Shown: piece after piece, positions 14,536 through 60,610 of the stretch
How positions within the stretch are numbered: the stretch's first letter is position 1
How the letters are laid out: every line of letters starts with the position of its first letter
Source of the DNA: Nostoc sp. ATCC 43529
GTDB lineage: Bacteria; Cyanobacteriota; Cyanobacteriia; Cyanobacteriales; Nostocaceae
DNA length: 64,000 bases
NCBI GenBank assembly: GCA_003326205.1
Contig: LWTK01000001.1
Location: 229,752-293,751, forward strand
Direction: 5' to 3'
Translations under genes and position numbers: made by a program
Notes under the pieces: generated by a model
The model's database searches: none
Told to the model about the DNA's origin: nothing
What the model saw: only the letters and a program-made list of their open reading frames with translations

Positions 14536-15705
14536 CTAATTTGTCCTTGGTTGTGGTGTTCGTCGATGCTGTATTAGCAATCCAATACCCATACCAATAC
14601 CGACAATGGCAGTAAAGTAGAATAAACCAATCAATCGGATATAAATTGGTGGTGCGATCGCTTCAACTTCAACTTCTTGTGCTACTTTTACTGGTGTAAA
14701 TTGACGGCTAGATCCTGGGTTGGGAGTTGCTTCCACTTCAACTTTATGTGGCGCACCATCAAAAAATTGTTCTTGCCATGTTAACTTACCTTCTTGGTCG
14801 GTAAGTCCTTTGTAGGCAAAGACTGTTAAATTATCTTCTAGAGCGATCGCTCTTACTTGCAAGATTACATCTTTGATGGGTTGTCCTGTGCTGCTATCCT
14901 TCACTTGTAACCCTAAATTCGCAAGTTTACCGACAGTCGCGTTTTTATCTCCTTGGAGTTGAATTTCCAATCCTTGCGATTTTTGAGATGATGGTGCGAT
15001 GGCTTCAGTATCCCTTGAGTGGTGTCCACTGTTATGAGCTTCGGCGACTTCTGCACTAATATTAATAAATAAAAGAGCTAATATAGCTACCACTATCAAG
15101 CTACTTAATAAAAGGCGCACTGATTGGGGTGCAATTTCTCCTTGTTGTATTTCTTGTTGTCCGCCAATAACCCAACCACCAAGCAATCCAACTGCTAATA
15201 AAATGGCTGCGATAACAACAAAATATTTATATTTAAGTGGATTTTCTCTGACATTAAGATTTAAAGTTTGCTCATAGGGAGCAAAGGAATTTGCTACCAA
15301 AGGTGACACTTTAACTAGCAACTGATAATTTCCCCGAATGGGTAACATCTGCTGAATTTCTAGCTTCCCATCAGGTGCAACGGCATCCATTTGCAACAGT
15401 TTTGTTCCCTCAACAATCGGAAAATCTGTTGTTAACCAGGGATTAGATGGCGGTGTCAAAATTTGCAAGTTGATTTTGGCATTTTCTAAAGATTTACCCG
15501 CCGCATCAACAGCTTCTAGTGTTAGATTAACAGGAGATTGATGTCTTTCGGTTCCAGCTTCAAAGGGAAGAATACGTTCTAAAGGTGGGTTTGTAGAAAG
15601 TATCACTCTAGAAGTAGGAATTTGAGAATTACCTACTAGGGAATAAAGAATCGACAAAGTGATGCAAACAGCACTGATAACTCCAAATATTCGATATTTT
15701 TTCAT
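14536..15705 (-). CDS. Membrane protein with Ig-like domains and central His motif
   Basis: Unrecognised protein of 389 aa. The N-terminus has a signal/anchor (FGVISAVCITLSILYSLVG), then an Ig-like region (about 35-150), two membrane segments (about 160-182, YFVVIAAILLAVGLLGGWV, and 202-222), a His-rich stretch AEAHNSGHHSRD after the second one, a second Ig-like region (about 250-350) with GKLTWQEQFFDGAPHKVEVE, and a final membrane segment before a basic tail. The His stretch resembles the C-terminus of the CbtB-like protein encoded just upstream on the same strand. Location beside iron genes suggests a metal-related role; this is inference. Confidence 0.65.
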   Translation of the reverse strand: MKKYRIFGVISAVCITLSILYSLVGNSQIPTSRVILSTNPPLERILPFEAGTERHQSPVNLTLEAVDAAGKSLENAKINLQILTPPSNPWLTTDFPIVEGTKLLQMDAVAPDGKLEIQQMLPIRGNYQLLVKVSPLVANSFAPYEQTLNLNVRENPLKYKYFVVIAAILLAVGLLGGWVIGGQQEIQQGEIAPQSVRLLLSSLIVVAILALLFINISAEVAEAHNSGHHSRDTEAIAPSSQKSQGLEIQLQGDKNATVGKLANLGLQVKDSSTGQPIKDVILQVRAIALEDNLTVFAYKGLTDQEGKLTWQEQFFDGAPHKVEVEATPNPGSSRQFTPVKVAQEVEVEAIAPPIYIRLIGLFYFTAIVGIGMGIGLLIQHRRTPQPRTN

Positions 15706-15911
15706 AGAAGCTGAGGTTGAGGAAGGATGAAGATGCTAATTAACAAGCAACCAATCTATTATTTGATTGGAAAAAAACTTTCTTTTTTTAGCCACCAGTC
15801 GCCAAAATTTAAAATCAATTTTGACGACTGACTCCTGAATTCGATTTTGATAACTTTATTAGGTGTCAAACCATTGTCTAATCCACCAGCAAAATTTTGG
15901 AATTAGATAAT

Positions 15912-16103
15912 TTAGTGACATGCAACGCCTAAAGTGTGATGCCGTGCTGAATGTGCTGCGTTGTGCGCCGCAGGATAGGTGGAGAACAAGGCAGTCCAAA
16001 TAATCAAAGAAGATAGCAGCATATAAAGCGTTATCTGCACTGGCTTGGACAAGGTAATACTTGCGGTCTTCTGTAATACTGAAATATGAGAAAAACTACT
16101 CAT
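15912..16103 (-). CDS. CbtB-like small metal-transport membrane protein
   Basis: Protein of 63 aa with one membrane segment (about 24-45, ITLYMLLSSLIIWTALFSTY) and a His-rich C-terminus, AAHNAAHSARHHTLGVACH. This matches the CbtB design, a small subunit with one TM helix ending in a His-rich motif and terminal CH, found with the CbtA cobalt permease. No CbtA is visible in the window and no cobalamin riboswitch was recognised upstream, so cobalt specificity is unproven. It precedes the His-containing membrane protein by 206 bp on the same strand. Confidence 0.75.
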   Translation of the reverse strand: MSSFSHISVLQKTASITLSKPVQITLYMLLSSLIIWTALFSTYPAAHNAAHSARHHTLGVACH

Positions 16104-16856
16104 TTTTGACCTCGGATAATTAATTTGGGTAATTTATGAATCAAAGGGCATGATACCAATTGATTGCAAAAAGATATACGATAAAGTTCCTATTTGACAA
16201 GTGGGTATGAAATGTCTTGGGTAATTTGCCCTTAGTGAATACTATACTATTCTTTCAAGATTGGCTAATGATATGCAGAAATTTACACACAAAGTCCATA
16301 CAAATAACAAAACAATGACACATGATTTTGAATAACGCGAAAATGACATATCGAGATTAATTAAAAATTAAAAACGTTATGTTGCCAAATATAGAAAATT
16401 CTTTAAGATCCGATTTATTTTGTCGGTCAGCCAATTAAATATGCTACATCTTAGCAACAGGTTCTCGCTGACGTTCGGTTTCCAGGTAATATGATATACA
16501 TTGTTTGAAATTTAATTACTGTTAAAGTAGTAACTATATCAAAAGTAGATATTAGAAATTATCTAATTTTGGTTTTATTTATACTTGTGATTAAGTAAAA
16601 ATGCTGTTAAAAATGAAAAAATTTACCTAGAGTTTTCTAGGACAGCTAATCACAGGAAAATCCCACAAGCAACAAGGAAACAGGAATACTCTACTTTCTA
16701 TTTTTAAAGCAGATTTTAACTTGATGTAAATTGAATCACTTTGGTAACAGTTTTGAAGCATTTACAACTTATTGACAATAATTTTTAATTCATATAATAT
16801 ACACAAGGATAATTGCAAATAATTTTCAATTCTTTCGCTGCTAACTGTTAACTGTC
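16104..16856. other. Divergent promoter region between CbtB-like gene and oxidase
   Basis: About 750 bp, strongly AT-rich, separating two divergent metal-related gene sets. Promoters for both are expected here. The stretch GATAATTGCAAATAATTTTC near 16808 partly resembles a Fur box, but the match is weak. No riboswitch fold or small gene was recognised. Confidence 0.45.
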
Positions 16857-17888
16857 ATGCCCAACAACTTTGCTCTGGGTAACGAAAAACTTTGGAGTCG
16901 CCGTCAATTACTAAAACTGGGCTTAGCAGGTGTGGGAGTGACTGGTGCAGCTGCACTTTGGCAGACGTTAAATCTACAAAGTCAGTCAATAGTCAAGGTG
17001 CCACCATTTGATTTTGATATGGAAGCATCAGATAACGTTGCTAAACCGACGAAGATGCTAAGGGATTTTGACTATGGGACGCTCAAGCAAGAAAATGGGC
17101 GTACTATCCGAGAATTTCAGTTAACTGCTGGTACTTCCATTATTCAACTAAATAGTGCTGTCTCTTACAACATCTGGGATTTAAACGGGCGCATACCAGG
17201 GCCAACGCTACGGGCCAAAGAAGGCGAACGCGTGCGAATATTATTTCTCAATAACGCTGGACATTCTCACTCTTTACATTTTCATGGGGTCCATCCAGCA
17301 GAAATGGATGGTATTCGTCCAGTCAGCAACGGCAAAGCCACAATTTATGAATTTGATGCCGAACCTTATGGCGTTCACTTATACCACTGTCATATTGAAC
17401 CAGTTACCCGTCACATTGCCAAGGGACTGTACGGGATGTTTATCATCGATCCTCCGACTCCCCGTCCGCCAGCTGATGAAATTGTATTAGTGATGGCTGG
17501 GTATGACGTGAATGATGATAGCCATAATGAGTATTACGCCTTTAACGGCCTGCCTCATCATTACATGCATCATCCCATTCCTATTTATCAAAATCAGTTG
17601 ATTCGGCTGTACGTCCTCAACATTATTGAATACGATCCGGCAGTCACCTTTCACCTCCACGCTAACTTTTTTGATGTCTATCGCTACGGCATGAGTATGA
17701 CTGCAAGTGAAAAAACTGATGTGCTGACGATGGGTGTAGCAGAAAGGCACATTTTAGAATTTGCTTTTCGCTACCCAGGTAAATATATGTTTCATCCTCA
17801 TCAAGATGCGATCGCTGAAAACGGTTGTATGGGTCAATTTGAAGTAATTGCTAACAGTAAATCTCAAAAAAATGTTAACAATTCCTGA
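16857..17888 (+). CDS. Tat-exported two-domain multicopper oxidase
   Basis: Multicopper oxidase of 343 aa. A twin-arginine signal (SRRQLLKLGLAGVGVTGAAA, R15-R16) implies export of the folded protein. Two cupredoxin domains carry copper ligands: HFH at 141-143, HLYHCH at 174-179 with the type-1 Cys178, His186 and a following Met, then HLH at 266-268 and HPH at 313-315. The Cys in the first domain places the type-1 site there, as in nitrite reductases and some two-domain laccases. Because an FTR1 permease and a ferritin-like protein follow on the same strand, ferroxidase activity is the likeliest job; nitrite reductase or general laccase are alternatives. Confidence 0.85.
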   Translation: MPNNFALGNEKLWSRRQLLKLGLAGVGVTGAAALWQTLNLQSQSIVKVPPFDFDMEASDNVAKPTKMLRDFDYGTLKQENGRTIREFQLTAGTSIIQLNSAVSYNIWDLNGRIPGPTLRAKEGERVRILFLNNAGHSHSLHFHGVHPAEMDGIRPVSNGKATIYEFDAEPYGVHLYHCHIEPVTRHIAKGLYGMFIIDPPTPRPPADEIVLVMAGYDVNDDSHNEYYAFNGLPHHYMHHPIPIYQNQLIRLYVLNIIEYDPAVTFHLHANFFDVYRYGMSMTASEKTDVLTMGVAERHILEFAFRYPGKYMFHPHQDAIAENGCMGQFEVIANSKSQKNVNNS

Positions 17889-18081
17889 CAAAATCATCAG
17901 TAATTCTTGGTCAAAATACTTAATTCGGAATAAATAGGTTAAAAATTTAAATCAACTATTTGATAAAAAATATCATTATATGCGAAAGTAAATTCTATGA
18001 CAATTCTTCAAAAAAACAACTTTTTAGTAATAGTTTTGAAGTGTTTGAATTAATACGTTTTAAATTGTGTGAGGAGCAAAG

Positions 18082-19122
18082 ATGATAAAATTTCGCTATA
18101 TCTGTTTAACTGTTGCGACTGCGGCAATAATTACCTTGAGTTCCTGTAGCAGTACGCCAACCGCAGAAAATCCCTCAGCCCCAGTTGCTACTCCTCAAGC
18201 TACAGAAGCAGCAGCAAATAATAGCAGTCATAGCGGTCACGGTGGTAAAGAAAAAATCAACATTAATACTGCTATATTGTCAGAATTAGATAAATTTGAA
18301 GCCAAACTAGGTGTACCGGCTTTATCTAACAAAATTCAGGCGAATCGGCCCTACGGTAGTCCAGAAGATTTAGTCACAAAAAAAGTGATTACTCAAGAAC
18401 AATTCGACCAAATTAAAGACCAGGTTGGCGTTCAAGAAGTAGTACTTACAGGTGAAGCCAAAGATGTTGACTATATGTCTAAATTAGGCTTAATGAAAGG
18501 ACATCTTTTAGTAGCAAAAGAACTGCTAGATCAAAATCAGCCGAAACAGGCAGAACCTCATATTGGGCATCCAGTTGAAGAGATTTATGTTGATGTAGAA
18601 GACCAACTTAATGAGCGCAAAGTTAAAGAATTTAAGACAACTTTGGTGAGTTTGCAAGATTTAGTAAAATCTAGTCCCAAGGATAGTAAAGTTAAAACTA
18701 ATTTTACTTCTTCAGTGGCAGCGGTTGATGGAGCGATCGCAGCTTTACCAGCACCAGAACGTTCCAAACCGGGATTTGTATTACAGGTAATTAACGAATT
18801 ACTGGATGCAGCGAACTCAGAATATGGCGCGGCGATCGCAGATGGTAAGATATCCGCAGCAATTGAGTATCAAGACTCTCGTGGATTTGTCATCTACGCC
18901 AATGAATTATACAAAGGAATTTCCAGCCAAGTAGCTCAACAAGATGCCCAAGCAGATAAAGCAATTAATACTAGTTTCGCTGAACTGGTAAAAGTTTGGC
19001 CTGCCGCAATTCCACCAGCTAAACCGGTAAAGACTCCAGAGGATGTTACCAAATTGGTGAAAACCATTGAGGAAAACTCTCAAAAAGTGATTGATAAATC
19101 TAGTTCCCAAGCACAGCGATAA
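18082..19122 (+). CDS. Helix-hairpin-helix lipoprotein of the iron cluster
   Basis: Protein of 346 aa with a lipoprotein signal (lipobox LSSC, Cys22), a short His/Gly segment (HSGHGG, about 50-55), a ComEA-like helix-hairpin-helix (KININTAILSELDKFEAKL, about 57-115) and a long all-helical domain. In the helical part, KGHLLVAKELL and HIGHPVEEIY contain an HxxE arrangement that recalls the metal site of imelysin/EfeO periplasmic proteins, though I cannot claim homology. It lies 193 bp after the oxidase. A periplasmic iron-binding or delivery role is plausible by context; DNA uptake, the usual ComEA role, seems less likely here. Confidence 0.7.
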   Translation: MIKFRYICLTVATAAIITLSSCSSTPTAENPSAPVATPQATEAAANNSSHSGHGGKEKININTAILSELDKFEAKLGVPALSNKIQANRPYGSPEDLVTKKVITQEQFDQIKDQVGVQEVVLTGEAKDVDYMSKLGLMKGHLLVAKELLDQNQPKQAEPHIGHPVEEIYVDVEDQLNERKVKEFKTTLVSLQDLVKSSPKDSKVKTNFTSSVAAVDGAIAALPAPERSKPGFVLQVINELLDAANSEYGAAIADGKISAAIEYQDSRGFVIYANELYKGISSQVAQQDAQADKAINTSFAELVKVWPAAIPPAKPVKTPEDVTKLVKTIEENSQKVIDKSSSQAQR

Positions 19123-19159
19123 CATTTTGATTTAATGGGAAGCTTAGGGTAAGGTGTTT

Positions 19160-19380
19160 AAAATTAGGAGAAAGTTAAGAGTTAGGAGCTATGGAGTCAA
19201 AAGTTAGGAGTTAGAAGTTAGGAGTTAGGAGTTAAGAGTTAAGAGTTAGGAGTTAAGAGTTAAGAGTTATAAGAAATTTTCAACTTCTTACTTTTAACTC
19301 CCAACTCCTCACTCCTCACTCCTCACTCCTCACTCCTCACTCCTCACTCCTCACTCCCAACTCATAGCTCCTAATTCATA
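19160..19380. repeat. Inverted arrays of GAGTTAG and ACTCCTC heptads
   Basis: A run of GAGTTAG/GAGTTAA heptads (about 19160-19268) is followed after a short spacer by complementary CTCCCAACTCCTCACTCCTC heptads (about 19296-19375). The arrays could pair into a long imperfect hairpin between the lipoprotein and ferritin-like genes. Comparable inverted heptad arrays lie at 42000-42145, 43665-43740 and in part at 4195-4230. Confidence 0.85.
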
Positions 19381-19418
19381 ACTAATTACACTCTATTCGT
19401 CACTTCAATTAACAACTG

Positions 19419-19853
19419 ATGCAAGAACTTGACCAGAAAAAGACCATTGATTTGCTCAACGCCATCATGGAATTTGAATTAGCAGGAGTAGTACGGTATA
19501 CACATTATTCCTTAATGGTGACTGGCCCTAACCGCATTCCCATAGTGGCTTTCTTCAAAGCACAAGCAAGCGAATCTTTACTTCATGCCCAACAAGTAGG
19601 AGAAATTCTCACAGGTTTAGATGGCCATCCTTCCTTAAAAATTGCCCCAATGGAAGAAACCTACAAGCATACAGTCAAAGATATTTTGGCAGAAAGCTTA
19701 TCCCATGAAAAAAAGGCATTAGATCTGTATAAAAGTCTCCTAGAAACTGTCAACAATGCCAGCGTTTATCTAGAAGAATTTGCTCGTGGCATGATAGGGC
19801 AAGAAGAGATGCATAATCTCGAACTGAAAAAGATGTTACGTGATTTTAGTTAA
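19419..19853 (+). CDS. Ferritin-like / bacterioferritin-type protein
   Basis: Four-helix-bundle protein of 144 aa. Candidate di-iron ligands are in place: Glu in IMEFELAGVVRYTHYS (helix A), ESLLHAQ (ExxxH, helix B), ESLSHEKK (helix C) and GQEEMHN (ExxH, helix D). This fits bacterioferritin or a related ferritin-like family that oxidises and stores iron. It is somewhat shorter than a classical bacterioferritin (about 155-160 aa). It sits between the HHH lipoprotein and FTR1 on the same strand, which supports an iron-handling role for the cluster. Confidence 0.82.
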   Translation: MQELDQKKTIDLLNAIMEFELAGVVRYTHYSLMVTGPNRIPIVAFFKAQASESLLHAQQVGEILTGLDGHPSLKIAPMEETYKHTVKDILAESLSHEKKALDLYKSLLETVNNASVYLEEFARGMIGQEEMHNLELKKMLRDFS

Positions 19854-19953
19854 TAGTCATTAGTCATTAGTCATTAGTCATTGGTCATTGGTTATTTGCT
19901 AAGGACAAATGATAACTGGCTAATGACAAAGGACAAAAGACAAGGGATAAAAA

Positions 19954-20922
19954 ATGAATTTTAGTACTGCTATACCTACTTTTGTGATTACACTCCGAGA
20001 AGGAGTAGAAGCTGCTCTTGTTGTGGGAATTGTCTTAGCTTTACTGAAAAAAGCTAAAAAATCCAATCTCAAACCTTGGGTATATGCTGGTGTCGGCGTT
20101 GGTATTGCCATTAGTGCCTTGATAGGTGTGCTATTCAGTTGGATAATTCAAGTAGTGGGAGCTGCTAATCCTCAATATACTTCCGTAGTTGAGCCACTAC
20201 TAGAAGGTGTATTTAGTGTATTAGCGATCGCAATGCTCAGTTGGATGCTCATCTGGATGACTCAACAAGCCAAATTTATGAAAGCGCAAGTTGAGGGAGC
20301 AGTTACACAAGCACTGACAAAAAACTCAAATGCCGCTTGGGGTGTTTTTAGTTTAGTTTTTATTGCGGTTGTTCGGGAAGGCTTTGAAACAGTTCTGTTC
20401 GTTGCTGCTAACTTTCAACAAGGATTAATACCCAGCATCGGCGCAGTTGCAGGTTTGACAGTAGCGATCGCCATAGGTGTGCTTTTATTTAAATGGGGCA
20501 TCAAAATTAATATCCGCCAATTTTTTCAGGTAATGGGCATTTTATTAGTATTGATTGTCTCTGGCTTAGTAGTTTCAGCCTTGAAAAATTTTGACGACGC
20601 TGCGGCTAACTTTGCCCTTAGCAGCCGTGCTACACAAAGCCTTTGTTTCTATTACGAACGCTTTACTAAAATCCACTCCTGTATTTTAGGCCCAATTGTC
20701 TCAAATACTTCCACAATTTTGCCAGAAGAACAATTTCCTGGCATTATTTTCAAATCTTTATTTGGCTACAGCGACAAAATTTATCTCGTCCAAGCCGTGG
20801 CATATATCGGCTTTTTACTCGCCATAGGCGGGCTATATTTCCGCAGTCTTGGAGGAGGCTTTTTTCAAGGTCAAAACAATACTTCATGTCGTCAAAAACC
20901 AATCAATTCTGCAAAAGATTAA
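19954..20922 (+). CDS. FTR1-family iron permease
   Basis: Membrane permease of 322 aa with the two hallmark motifs: REGVE at 15-19 in the first membrane helix and REGFE at 141-145 in the fourth. About seven hydrophobic helices are visible, plus a loop (about 205-270) between the last two. In yeast Ftr1 and bacterial EfeU these Arg-Glu motifs carry ferric iron that is supplied by a ferroxidase. Here the multicopper oxidase three genes upstream would be that partner. The gene starts 100 bp after the ferritin-like gene, downstream of a TAGTCAT-type heptad array. Confidence 0.9.
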   Translation: MNFSTAIPTFVITLREGVEAALVVGIVLALLKKAKKSNLKPWVYAGVGVGIAISALIGVLFSWIIQVVGAANPQYTSVVEPLLEGVFSVLAIAMLSWMLIWMTQQAKFMKAQVEGAVTQALTKNSNAAWGVFSLVFIAVVREGFETVLFVAANFQQGLIPSIGAVAGLTVAIAIGVLLFKWGIKINIRQFFQVMGILLVLIVSGLVVSALKNFDDAAANFALSSRATQSLCFYYERFTKIHSCILGPIVSNTSTILPEEQFPGIIFKSLFGYSDKIYLVQAVAYIGFLLAIGGLYFRSLGGGFFQGQNNTSCRQKPINSAKD

Positions 20923-21000: not shown

Positions 21001-21942
21001 CTAAGTACGCTCTGCTCCAAACAAATCTTGTTTCAACTGCTGACAAGCCTTTTCTATAGCATCTATACTCCCTGGATTCACCAAACCATAATAATCAAAC
21101 ACATAAATTCGGTTCTTTTGAGTCGCTTGTAACTGCTTCCAAAAACTATCTTTTTTCAAAGAATCTAAGAGCCATCCTTCGGAATTACCTTGCGGAGGAT
21201 TAACCAAAACTATCGCATCTGGATTTGCCTCTAAAACTTTCTCAGCCGAAAGCGTCACATAGCCACCAATTGGACTTTTTCCTTGTAATTCTGCTGCTAT
21301 ATTTTTCACCTTAAATTGCCTTAGTAAATCTCCCGCCCAACTATTTTTATTAGGTGCTAAAATTGGTTGACGACTAACCAGCACCAAAGCCGTAAGACTC
21401 TGATTAGGGTCATCTGGCAAAAAACTTTTGTAACGATTTAACAAAGGCTGAGCATCGGCATAAATTAATTCAGCTAGTGTTTTGGTCAACTTTTCGAGAG
21501 ATTCCCAGTTATTAACCTGGGTAAGCAAAGTTGGAATCCCTAATTGCTTAATTTTTTGAATAGGAATAGTAGAAAAACCTTCTGCACCAATAACTAAATC
21601 TGGTTTAAGTGCGACAATTTTCTCTAAATTAGGAGGATTTTGCCCCTCGCTAACACGTGGAATATTTTTAAAACGAGAGTCATCTTTAAATAATTTACTA
21701 CCAGTAATTCCGACAATTTTTGTTTGATCGAGTTGAGCGATAATATCCGCTGATAGAGAAGAAAGAGCAACAACTCTTTTTGCTGATTTTTTTGGTAATT
21801 CTTGCGAATTTGAGTTAGTTTTTTCAGTAGTATTTGCTACTTTTGTTGGTAGCTGCTGATTACTGACAGTGTTGCAAGCAACTAAAGTTATACTCAAAAA
21901 AAATGCTAAAACAGATAAAAGCCAACGATGATACATAATCAA
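21001..21942 (-). CDS. Iron/cobalamin-type ABC substrate-binding lipoprotein
   Basis: Periplasmic binding lipoprotein of 313 aa, peripla_BP_2 (FecB/BtuF/FhuD) fold. The signal ends in a lipobox LVAC near residue 23. Typical motifs are KRVVALSSLSADIIAQLD, KIVGIT, LEKIVALKPDLVIG, the GIPTLL turn and NPDAIVLVNPP. Substrates of the family are ferric siderophores, haem and cobalamin. No permease or ATPase is beside it, so it may work with components elsewhere. It converges on FTR1 with about 80 bp between stops, and its position next to the iron cluster favours an iron complex. Confidence 0.85.
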   Translation of the reverse strand: MIMYHRWLLSVLAFFLSITLVACNTVSNQQLPTKVANTTEKTNSNSQELPKKSAKRVVALSSLSADIIAQLDQTKIVGITGSKLFKDDSRFKNIPRVSEGQNPPNLEKIVALKPDLVIGAEGFSTIPIQKIKQLGIPTLLTQVNNWESLEKLTKTLAELIYADAQPLLNRYKSFLPDDPNQSLTALVLVSRQPILAPNKNSWAGDLLRQFKVKNIAAELQGKSPIGGYVTLSAEKVLEANPDAIVLVNPPQGNSEGWLLDSLKKDSFWKQLQATQKNRIYVFDYYGLVNPGSIDAIEKACQQLKQDLFGAERT

Positions 21943-58825: not shown

Positions 58826-58978
58826 TAGTTTGAATTCAGCATTGTATTAATTTGCTTGTATTAATGAAAGGACATAAGGTATAATCGGTGCTGTAATTTT
58901 GTGTGAAATAACCCAAAAGTAAAATGTTTTAGGCATTTTACCATTCTTGGATTAGTAGGTGTGAGTGAAACTAAAAAC

Positions 58979-60610
58979 ATGACAAAACAATTCTGGAATC
59001 TTATTAAGGTTAGTCCAATTGTTGTCGCCGCTACATTTTGTACAGCAAATGCCGCTTTTGCTGATGAAGTTAACGACCAAATAACAAATGTTGCTCAGTT
59101 ATCTGAAGCTCAAGAATCTAACAATATAGATCAGGTAACATCAGTTTCTCAGTTTTCCGATGTTCAGCCTACAGATTGGGCATTCCAAGCTTTACAATCT
59201 CTAGTTGAGCGCTACGGTTGTATTGCAGGTTATCCTAATAGCACCTATCGCGGTAATCGTGCTTTGACTCGTTACGAATTTGCCGCAGGTTTGAATGCTT
59301 GTTTAGACAGAGTTAATGAACTAATTGCTACAGCTACCGCTGATTTGGTAAGCAAACAAGACTTGGCTACCCTACAGCGTTTACAAGAAGAATTTTCTGC
59401 TGAATTAGCAACCCTGCGCGGTCGTGTAGATGCTCTAGAAGCCCGCACTGCGGAATTAGAAGCTAATCAATTCTCTACTACTACCAAGTTGGTTGGTGAA
59501 GCAATTTTCAACGTATCTCAAGCTTTCGGTGATACAAGAGCAGTTGCAACTGGCGATCCAACTGAAGATTTAGATGCCAATACTACCTTTGATGACCGCG
59601 TTCGTTTGAACTTGTACAGCAGTTTCTACGGTACAGACCAGTTGCAAATCCGTTTGAATGCTGGCAACATCATTTCCAACGCTGGTGTTACTGGTACTAA
59701 CATGACACGCTTGGGCTTTGACGGTAATACCACGAACAGCGTTTTCATCGATAAAGTGAACTATGCATTCAACTTCGGTGATGCGGTGCGGGTAAAAGTT
59801 GATGCCGTTGGTGGTGAATTATACGAGAACGTCAATACTTTTAACCCTGATTTTGCCAGCTCTGGTAAAGGTGCGCTCTCTCGCTATGGACGTTTCAGCC
59901 CCATCTATCGCCAAGGTCAAGGCGGTGCTGGTGTGACTGTTACTTTCAATCCTAAAGGGGCGATCAGTTTGAGTGGTGCTTATCTAGCTAGAACTGCTAA
60001 CGACCCCACCGTTAACAATGGTCTGTTTAATGGTGATAGCGTTATCTTTGGTCAGTTATCTTTCCAACCTACCAAAGCCTTTAATATTGGTGTGAGCTAC
60101 GCCCGTACTTATCAAACAGATACTGTTGCTAACAACCTTTTCCAAGGTACAGGTAGCGCTTTTGCTAACAACCCCTTTGGAGCTGGTAGTCGTGTTGAAT
60201 CCAACAACTACGGCGTACAAGCTACTTTCCAATTTAGCCCTAGCATAGCTCTTAGCGGTTGGGGTGGTTATGCAACAGCTGATGCGAAAACTGGTGTGAA
60301 TGCGGGTACAGATGCAGATTCTTGGTGGTGGGCTGGCTCCCTTGCTTTAAAAGACTTTGGTGGGGAAGGTAATGTCTTAGGTGTGATCTTTGGTCAACCA
60401 CCCAGAATTTCTGGTGGTAGCATCAAAGATGTTGCTACCAATGTTGACTTAGATGACGATACCTCTTATCACTTAGAAGGTCTTTACAAGTTCAAGGTAT
60501 CGGATAATCTGCAAATCACTCCTGGCTTGTTGGTAATCTTCAATCCAGAAAACAACGATGCTAACAACACTATTTATGTAGGTACTCTACGTACTACTTT
60601 CAGCTTCTAA
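58979..60610 (+). CDS. SLH-domain outer-membrane porin (OprB-type)
   Basis: Porin of about 543 aa from ATG 58979; an in-frame GTG at 58961 would add six residues. A signal peptide (IVVAATFCTANAAFA) leads to an SLH domain (about 55-115; FSDVQPTDWAFQALQSLVER, GCIAGYPNSTYRGNRALTRY), a coiled-coil stretch (QRLQEEFSAELATLRGRVDA) and a beta-barrel ending in a Phe (LRTTFSF). The SLH domain is expected to bind peptidoglycan-linked polymer. The family includes SomA/SomB porins and proposed iron-uptake porins. A strong terminator follows. Confidence 0.92.
   Translation: MTKQFWNLIKVSPIVVAATFCTANAAFADEVNDQITNVAQLSEAQESNNIDQVTSVSQFSDVQPTDWAFQALQSLVERYGCIAGYPNSTYRGNRALTRYEFAAGLNACLDRVNELIATATADLVSKQDLATLQRLQEEFSAELATLRGRVDALEARTAELEANQFSTTTKLVGEAIFNVSQAFGDTRAVATGDPTEDLDANTTFDDRVRLNLYSSFYGTDQLQIRLNAGNIISNAGVTGTNMTRLGFDGNTTNSVFIDKVNYAFNFGDAVRVKVDAVGGELYENVNTFNPDFASSGKGALSRYGRFSPIYRQGQGGAGVTVTFNPKGAISLSGAYLARTANDPTVNNGLFNGDSVIFGQLSFQPTKAFNIGVSYARTYQTDTVANNLFQGTGSAFANNPFGAGSRVESNNYGVQATFQFSPSIALSGWGGYATADAKTGVNAGTDADSWWWAGSLALKDFGGEGNVLGVIFGQPPRISGGSIKDVATNVDLDDDTSYHLEGLYKFKVSDNLQITPGLLVIFNPENNDANNTIYVGTLRTTFSF

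Follow-up and report, generated by a model that had tools for sequence, protein, structure and literature searches.

Which enzyme might oxidize iron for an FTR1 permease in a cyanobacterium? The question is raised by four genes of Nostoc sp. ATCC 43529 that lie on the + strand, within 4.1 kb of a 64,000-nucleotide stretch of contig LWTK01000001.1 (the window, below), and that encode a two-domain multicopper oxidase, a helix-hairpin-helix (HHH) lipoprotein, a ferritin-like protein, and an FTR1 permease, each with a Pfam match over the cut-off. A reduction/re-oxidation pathway has been proposed for cyanobacterial FTR1, and the available portions of the papers concerned attribute the re-oxidation step to oxygen and name no enzyme for it (PMC7676907, PMC11221513). 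A preliminary description of the window had joined the four genes into one iron cluster. Calls of open reading frames (ORFs) and Pfam matches bear out their positions and common strand, and the iron assignment is supported by co-occurrence, by the FTR1 and ferritin partners, by iron-named neighbors of related units that lack the HHH domain, and by a Fur-like box in the promoter. In our reading the cluster is probably an EfeU/Ftr1-type iron uptake route with the two-domain multicopper oxidase as its oxidant. Among the matches listed, oxidase and lipoprotein both have their nearest relatives in Nostoc. The titles and abstract openings listed by searches of an open-access library yielded no description of an oxidase-lipoprotein-ferritin-FTR1 cluster, and no paper that brought together cyanobacteria, multicopper oxidase, helix-hairpin-helix, and iron.

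An oxidase-lipoprotein pair beside FTR1

We surveyed 116 genomes of the cyanobacterial phylum (113 of them with completeness of 90% or more and contamination of 5% or less) and a second sample of 156 genomes of the cyanobacterial class, which shares eight lipoprotein genomes with the first. Oxidases were counted at a score of at least 376 bits in the first sample and at least 390 bits in the class sample (12 and 29 weaker genomes dropped, respectively), class-sample lipoproteins at a minimum of 170 bits (seven weaker dropped), and first-sample ferritin-like proteins at a minimum of 236 bits. The first sample contains FTR1 in 45 genomes, the ferritin in 38 (29 at the cut-off), the lipoprotein in 25, and the oxidase in 34 (22 at the cut-off). 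All 22 of these oxidase genomes carry the lipoprotein, against 3 of the 94 others (Fisher p = 8e-21), and in the class sample, where the oxidase was counted in 46 genomes (75 matched at all), the lipoprotein in 45 (52 at all), and FTR1 in 121, the first two occur together in 45 genomes, or 45/46 of those with the oxidase (p = 1e-38); because the surveyed genomes share ancestry, the counts cannot be taken as independent events, and all p-values given here overstate independence. The only class-sample oxidase without a lipoprotein (G136) lies 280 bases from a contig end. The two genes are less than 4 kb apart in 20 of the 22 first-sample genomes, the exceptions being G095, where they lie on opposite strands at a distance of about 15 kb, and G110, where they stand at two contig ends. 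The three first-sample genomes with a lipoprotein alone hold a divergent copy (G112) or remnants of 92 (G046) and 34 residues (G019), and the last of these sits beside a 24-residue oxidase remnant, so that G019 looks like a genome that lost both genes of the pair and kept ferritin and FTR1. The oxidase and the lipoprotein are the core pair.

FTR1 is present in 21 of the 22 first-sample oxidase genomes, and its position relative to the pair follows the HHH domain of the lipoprotein. Sixteen first-sample lipoproteins match across the HHH domain, of which 15 have FTR1 as their neighbor, separated by no more than the ferritin gene, and one is at a contig end, while none of the seven without HHH is beside FTR1. 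We scored the 37 new class-sample loci with HHH, helical-domain, and oxidase profiles, which gave a result for 36 (the lipoprotein of L190 is masked by an overlapping ORF). FTR1 adjoins the lipoprotein in all 26 loci that carry HHH, with ferritin in between in none; the oxidase adjoins it in 23, and in the other three (L192-L194) it is found elsewhere. None of the ten loci without HHH adjoins FTR1, and one such genome (G215) has a ferritin-FTR1 pair about 1.6 kb downstream. Pooled over both samples, FTR1 is beside HHH lipoproteins in 41/41 testable genomes (42 in all) and in 1/17 without HHH (p = 2e-13). An oxidase encoded together with FTR1, the arrangement of Fet3/Ftr1-type systems, is thus found in the window and in 23 of the 26 HHH loci of the class sample, whose commonest unit is oxidase, HHH lipoprotein, and FTR1 with no ferritin.

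The ferritin-like gene has its own association. FTR1 occurs in 29/29 first-sample ferritin genomes and in 16/87 others (p = 4e-16), the spacing is under 3 kb in 25 of the 29 (a contig end accounts for one of the other four), and many genomes pair ferritin with FTR1 in the absence of oxidase and lipoprotein. The ferritin-like gene partners FTR1 independently of the pair and is added in most Nostocales loci. Gene neighborhoods across the cyanobacteria therefore display co-occurrence, the opposite of genes that never meet, and what is conserved is the pair and the trio without ferritin; the four-gene pathway proposed in the preliminary description does not hold as a conserved unit.

Among close relatives the order is firmer. 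We fetched 80 loci of such relatives by their lipoprotein, the best 80 of 168 confirmed candidates; all 80 include FTR1, 78 the ferritin gene, and 70 the oxidase, with constant order and strand. Three of the ten oxidase-less loci end within 300 bases upstream, and the remaining seven all have the oxidase elsewhere in the genome. If the four metal genes stood together by lineage alone, with no joint function, one might expect just such median intergenic gaps as are seen here (199, 177, and 121 bp) and the strong repeat hairpin before ferritin that is described below, features unlike one tight operon. We regard this as very improbable given the order conserved in 80 loci, the co-occurrence in two samples, the recurrence of the trio without ferritin, and a control with sister-subfamily oxidases (275-292 bits), none of whose eight members is near FTR1 (for seven, FTR1 is on another contig).

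Domains and ligands of the four proteins

The N-terminus of the oxidase carries the twin-arginine motif SRRQLLKL, with R15 and R16 invariant in 21 aligned sequences, and together with the matches to two Cu-oxidase families this upholds its earlier description as a two-domain multicopper oxidase exported by the twin-arginine (Tat) route. Type 1 copper ligands are found in domain 1 (H138, C178, and H186; the axial residue is Leu191). The complete histidine set of a trinuclear center comes from four HxH motifs (141/143, 177/179, 266/268, and 313/315); in domain 2, HPH replaces HCH. These copper ligands are identical in 20/20 sequences. Confinement of type 1 copper to domain 1, together with the trinuclear histidines, is the two-domain layout called type C, and the type C oxidases 3gdc (E = 1.7e-86) and 7rab, the nearest solved relatives, have an identical ligand layout; we know of no FTR1 context for oxidases of this type. 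Because the trinuclear histidine set is full, the enzyme reads, from its sequence, as O2-reducing. The copper nitrite reductase NirK has an axial Met at its type 1 copper and no trinuclear center. Of the nitrite-reductase-like ligand layout noticed earlier, the placement of type 1 copper in domain 1 stands, and the rest gives way to the axial Leu and the trinuclear histidines. NirK itself is ruled out by Leu191, by the four HxH motifs in all 20 sequences, and by a TIGR02376 score of 73 against a cut-off of 296 bits, and the comparison is misleading as to function. The Fet3 family proper has three cupredoxin domains where this oxidase has two, and Fet3 is a distant match (1zpu, E = 1e-10).

The lipoprotein is an unusual domain mix, as had been noticed, and its periplasmic placement is supported by a lipobox whose terminal Cys22 is invariant in 31/31 aligned sequences. 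Its Pfam-matched HHH domain resembles PsbU (4yuu; Foldseek probability 0.99, E = 0.53), and the second Gly of the hairpin GxG is Pro79, which is nearly invariant in the alignment. The helical domain belongs to no Pfam family and has seven residues conserved in 31/31 sequences (H141, H160, H163, E167, E247, E262, and D265). Its best whole-domain Foldseek matches are EfeO/EfeM, with E-values short of significance; EfeO, EfeM, and Algp7 chains take ranks 1-4 and 8 for one model and ranks 2, 6, 12, 14, and 26 for the other. Several other assignments were set aside. The source label "ComEA family DNA-binding protein" suggests that HHH binds DNA, which is unlikely given the lipobox and Pro79. Membership of M75 (imelysin) by sequence was rejected, with Peptidase_M75 matched in 1 of 31 family members at E = 0.087 and a profile comparison with one imelysin (hhalign) giving a probability of 3.5. 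A search of the lipoprotein profile against solved structures returned one ribosomal protein and otherwise designed repeat proteins, matches that we read as spurious.

The permease has the two REGxE motifs that had been ascribed to it, REGVE at 15-19 and REGFE at 141-145 (the second has Q instead of R in 3 of 50 FTR1 sequences compared), and its Pfam FTR1 match places it in the FTR1/EfeU family; the NCBIfam models TIGR00145 (239 bits, cut-off 304) and EfeU (190 bits, cut-off 255) both fall below threshold. In a tree of 49 FTR1 sequences, those adjacent to the oxidase or the HHH lipoprotein lie in one part, with some ferritin-only and two unassociated sequences; several nodes have low support, and we do not claim a clean clade. 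The genome has another FTR1 gene (G000:C36:217242-218075), which falls in a different part of the tree. It lies about 0.7 kb from a CtaE-like cytochrome oxidase subunit III gene, with an IS-like ORF between, and may go with a terminal oxidase reported as iron-reducing.

Six ferritin-family matches were found in this genome, which by eye comprise four canonical Dps proteins, the window protein, and one rubrerythrin-like protein. Set against the published Nostoc ferritins, the window protein is probably, by elimination rather than by sequence comparison, the ortholog of NpDps5 (Npun_F6212), which in the available part of its literature is called bacterioferritin-like and said to be expressed together with an iron permease, and which the accessible part of one paper links to light and H2O2 tolerance (PMC6116882). 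This orthology would place the FTR1 of the cluster in heterocysts. In helix B, Glu52-Ser53 is invariant in 34/34 sequences, and the position of that Ser is occupied by Glu in bacterioferritin-type relatives; because of this one-residue shift, the metal center is perhaps not a standard one.

Table 1. Features of the oxidase-lipoprotein-ferritin-FTR1 locus, in window positions
Feature	Position	Strand	Size and evidence
Two-domain multicopper oxidase, Tat signal	16857..17888	+	343 aa; Pfam Cu-oxidase_3 and Cu-oxidase_2
Lipoprotein predicted to face the periplasm (lipobox Cys22, PsbU-like HHH, helical domain)	18082..19122	+	346 aa; HHH_3, predicted structure and fold matches
HHH domain (lipoprotein residues 56-115)	18247..18426	+	Pfam HHH_3; alignment; Foldseek, PsbU 4yuu
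Helical domain (lipoprotein residues 124-340)	18451..19101	+	Model, Foldseek, conservation in alignment
Ferritin-like protein, probably the NpDps5 ortholog	19419..19853	+	144 aa; Pfam Ferritin
FTR1/EfeU-family permease, two REGxE motifs	19954..20922	+	322 aa; Pfam FTR1, E = 6e-58
Promoter-like -35 TTGACA / -10 TAATAT, 5' of the oxidase gene	16772..16800	+	Motif match; conserved in relatives
Fur-like 7-1-7 box over the -35 element	16773..16787	+	11/14 matches
21-bp palindrome (9-3-9) between the -10 element and the oxidase start codon	16811..16831	+	Conserved in relatives

Promoter, neighboring genes, and the metal concerned

Upstream of the oxidase gene we compared 67 loci of close relatives with 670 randomized sequences from a first-order Markov walk. 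A Fur-like box with at least 11/14 matches is present in 58/67 relatives and 43/670 randomized sequences, and the palindrome, with at least 16/18 matches and 41-54 bp 5' of the start codon, in 64/67 and 0/670. The region has no more -35/-10-type matches than shuffled sequences do, and this particular promoter is conserved in relatives. Another 12 oxidase loci, several less closely related ones included, have the Fur-like box (at least 11 matches) in seven cases and the palindrome in three. Sites of NtcA type lie 5' of the oxidase at 5 of the 67 loci, and none in the window. We rejected the palindrome as the mark of a regulon: it has five sites in the genome at no more than two mismatches, and the other four are not before an obvious iron gene. 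Control of the oxidase promoter by a Fur-family regulator would fit the box; before the ferritin gene, no box reaches 11/14 in 11 oxidase-less loci, which argues against common Fur control of the ferritin-FTR1 pair. The gap between lipoprotein and ferritin genes (19173-19372) holds arrays of heptad repeats in both orientations predicted to fold into a very stable hairpin (-110 kcal/mol, z = -9.6), at which transcription of the cluster could be split or attenuated. Rfam gave no match above the gathering score, and weak microRNA matches on the heptad repeats are due to chance.

Units whose lipoprotein lacks HHH lie in a different iron context. An iron-named gene is within about three genes at 12 of 18 such loci, a raw count with no matched background rate, or at 8 of 18 if loci with YbiX only are left out. 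At one locus (L106), a FutA-like binding protein (2pt1, E = 1e-141) is encoded on one strand with an iron uptake porin, FeoA, and the oxidase-lipoprotein pair. Two bacterioferritins and Bfd are the neighbors at L109, and L108 looks alike by sequence; the unit of L155 is flanked by a Fur-family gene on its upstream side and by YbiX on its downstream side; L172 neighbors ferritin and FTR1. YbiX-like genes are near L162, L163, L166, and L107, and an iron porin is near L182, L190, and L191. No iron link was seen near L105, L110, L159, L169, or L170, and L104 is a 3-kb contig.

Several findings weigh against an iron uptake route, and some of them lend weight to other explanations taken up below. 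Besides the relatedness of the surveyed genomes and the raw nature of the neighbor count, lipoprotein genes, intact or broken, exist without the oxidase in three genomes. The Fur-like box is weak, and the palindrome is mostly missing from oxidase promoters beyond close relatives. The resemblance of the helical domain to EfeO/EfeM is weak: the best fold match has E = 0.1 and none is significant, VIA-align places unrelated helical proteins higher, the hhalign comparison is as low as reported above, and the HxxE motif sits on a different helix from that of EfeM.

FTR1 was not found in 3 of the 18 genomes with a non-HHH pair (G110, G208, and G214), so the pair can serve something else. If that were iron protection, the oxidase and lipoprotein would hold periplasmic Fe(II) low, the ferritin would store the excess, and FTR1 would be a minor or separate component; the Bfr/Bfd and Fur neighbors of non-HHH loci and the tie between NpDps5 and tolerance of light and H2O2, from the part of that paper cited above, agree with such a role. 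We consider protection in place of uptake unlikely, since FTR1 stands beside every HHH-type lipoprotein in the 41 testable genomes and since the FutA, FeoA, and iron-porin neighbors indicate uptake.

The source database labels close relatives of the oxidase "manganese oxidase", and CbtB or CbiM, components of predicted cobalt/nickel uptake, are beside 47 of 61 Nostocales loci with long flanks. Both would be accounted for if the main substrate of the oxidase were Mn(II), Cu(I), or Co(II) and several metals were served by the cluster, which we judge to be less likely still. Against it stand FTR1 and ferritin within the cluster, the iron-named neighbors of 12 of 18 non-HHH loci, where by eye, without a profile search, we noticed no Co/Mn transporter, and the confinement of the cobalt genes to the Nostocales loci seen, usually on the opposite strand.

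Beyond the four genes the surroundings vary. CbtB occurs at 26 of the 80 loci fetched by the lipoprotein, and in the window it is encoded with a 389-aa membrane protein of no Pfam family at 14536-16103, in divergent orientation to the cluster; the place of these two genes is occupied in other Nostocales by a CbiM/CbiQ cobalt/nickel transporter. A periplasmic binding protein of BtuF/IsdE/siderophore type (21001-21942, - strand) adjoins the cluster here, and such a substrate-binding protein does so in 54/80 relatives. An iron uptake porin (NF033921, 664 bits) is encoded at 58961-60610, about 38 kb from the cluster. Some Nostocales and relatives have small proteins of about 160-250 aa between oxidase and lipoprotein or 5' of ferritin (L123 2687-3818, L089 5049-7034, and L124 5039-6413), with a 206-aa type counted 10 times and a 163-aa type six times in 61 loci; those of L123 and L089 match no Pfam or NCBIfam family. 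One relative (L126 4492-5001) has an MsrQ-like heme membrane protein, below the model cut-off, between oxidase and lipoprotein, a possible electron-transfer partner. In G005 (L084 4531-7082), the ferritin-FTR1 pair is divergent from imelysin (M75) and DHOR di-heme genes, a set resembling Efe/IrpA.

A probable oxidase-coupled FTR1 system built from other parts

Yeast Fet3p-Ftr1p and Chlamydomonas FOX1-FTR1 likewise pair a multicopper oxidase with an FTR1 permease, whereas here the oxidase has two domains and a Tat signal and a lipoprotein lies in between. EfeUOB and EfeUOB/M share with the cluster an FTR1/EfeU permease and a periplasmic helical protein, given the EfeO/EfeM-like predicted fold of the lipoprotein. 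Unlike those systems, the Nostoc cluster has a multicopper oxidase and a lipoprotein that carries HHH and has no recognizable M75 sequence or cupredoxin domain. No gene for an EfeB-type heme peroxidase, as found within EfeUOB clusters, is among the ORFs called around the cluster, in line with the preliminary description, the remainder of the genome not having been searched for EfeB. The cluster would work like Fet3-Ftr1 and EfeUO, yet as tested it is a member of neither, because of its two-domain oxidase, its carrier without M75 sequence, and the lack of EfeB beside that carrier; we file it as a variant among oxidase-coupled FTR1 systems. cFTR1 of Synechocystis 6803 (slr0964), to which the proposed reduction/re-oxidation pathway belongs, is likened to the permease as another cyanobacterial FTR1 and not by orthology comparison.

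If the cluster is an uptake route, periplasmic Fe(II) would be oxidized with O2 by the Tat-exported multicopper oxidase, and the membrane-tethered, EfeO-like lipoprotein would bind the resulting Fe(III), ahead of any precipitation, and pass it to FTR1 for import. We draw the direction of transport and the role of carrier from the FTR1 linkage and the weak resemblance of fold. A lipoprotein with the PsbU-like HHH domain is coupled to FTR1 genetically at least, and perhaps by docking. In Nostocales, the ferritin gene would have been inserted between lipoprotein and FTR1, and its product would store what enters.

A wider proposal is tentative, and we hold it to be possible but doubtful: that cyanobacteria possess a third kind of oxidase-coupled FTR1 system, which combines a two-domain oxidase with a new family of iron-chaperone lipoproteins, in which a PsbU-like HHH was recruited to dock FTR1, the HHH-less form serves other iron systems, and heterocyst formers add a ferritin, feeding nitrogenase-rich cells. 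For the reduction/re-oxidation route proposed for cyanobacterial FTR1, the cluster supplies candidates for the oxidase and the iron carrier, together with their permease. If this is true, a role would be given to a lipoprotein family whose main domain has no Pfam model, and bacteria would reach the yeast solution using different parts.

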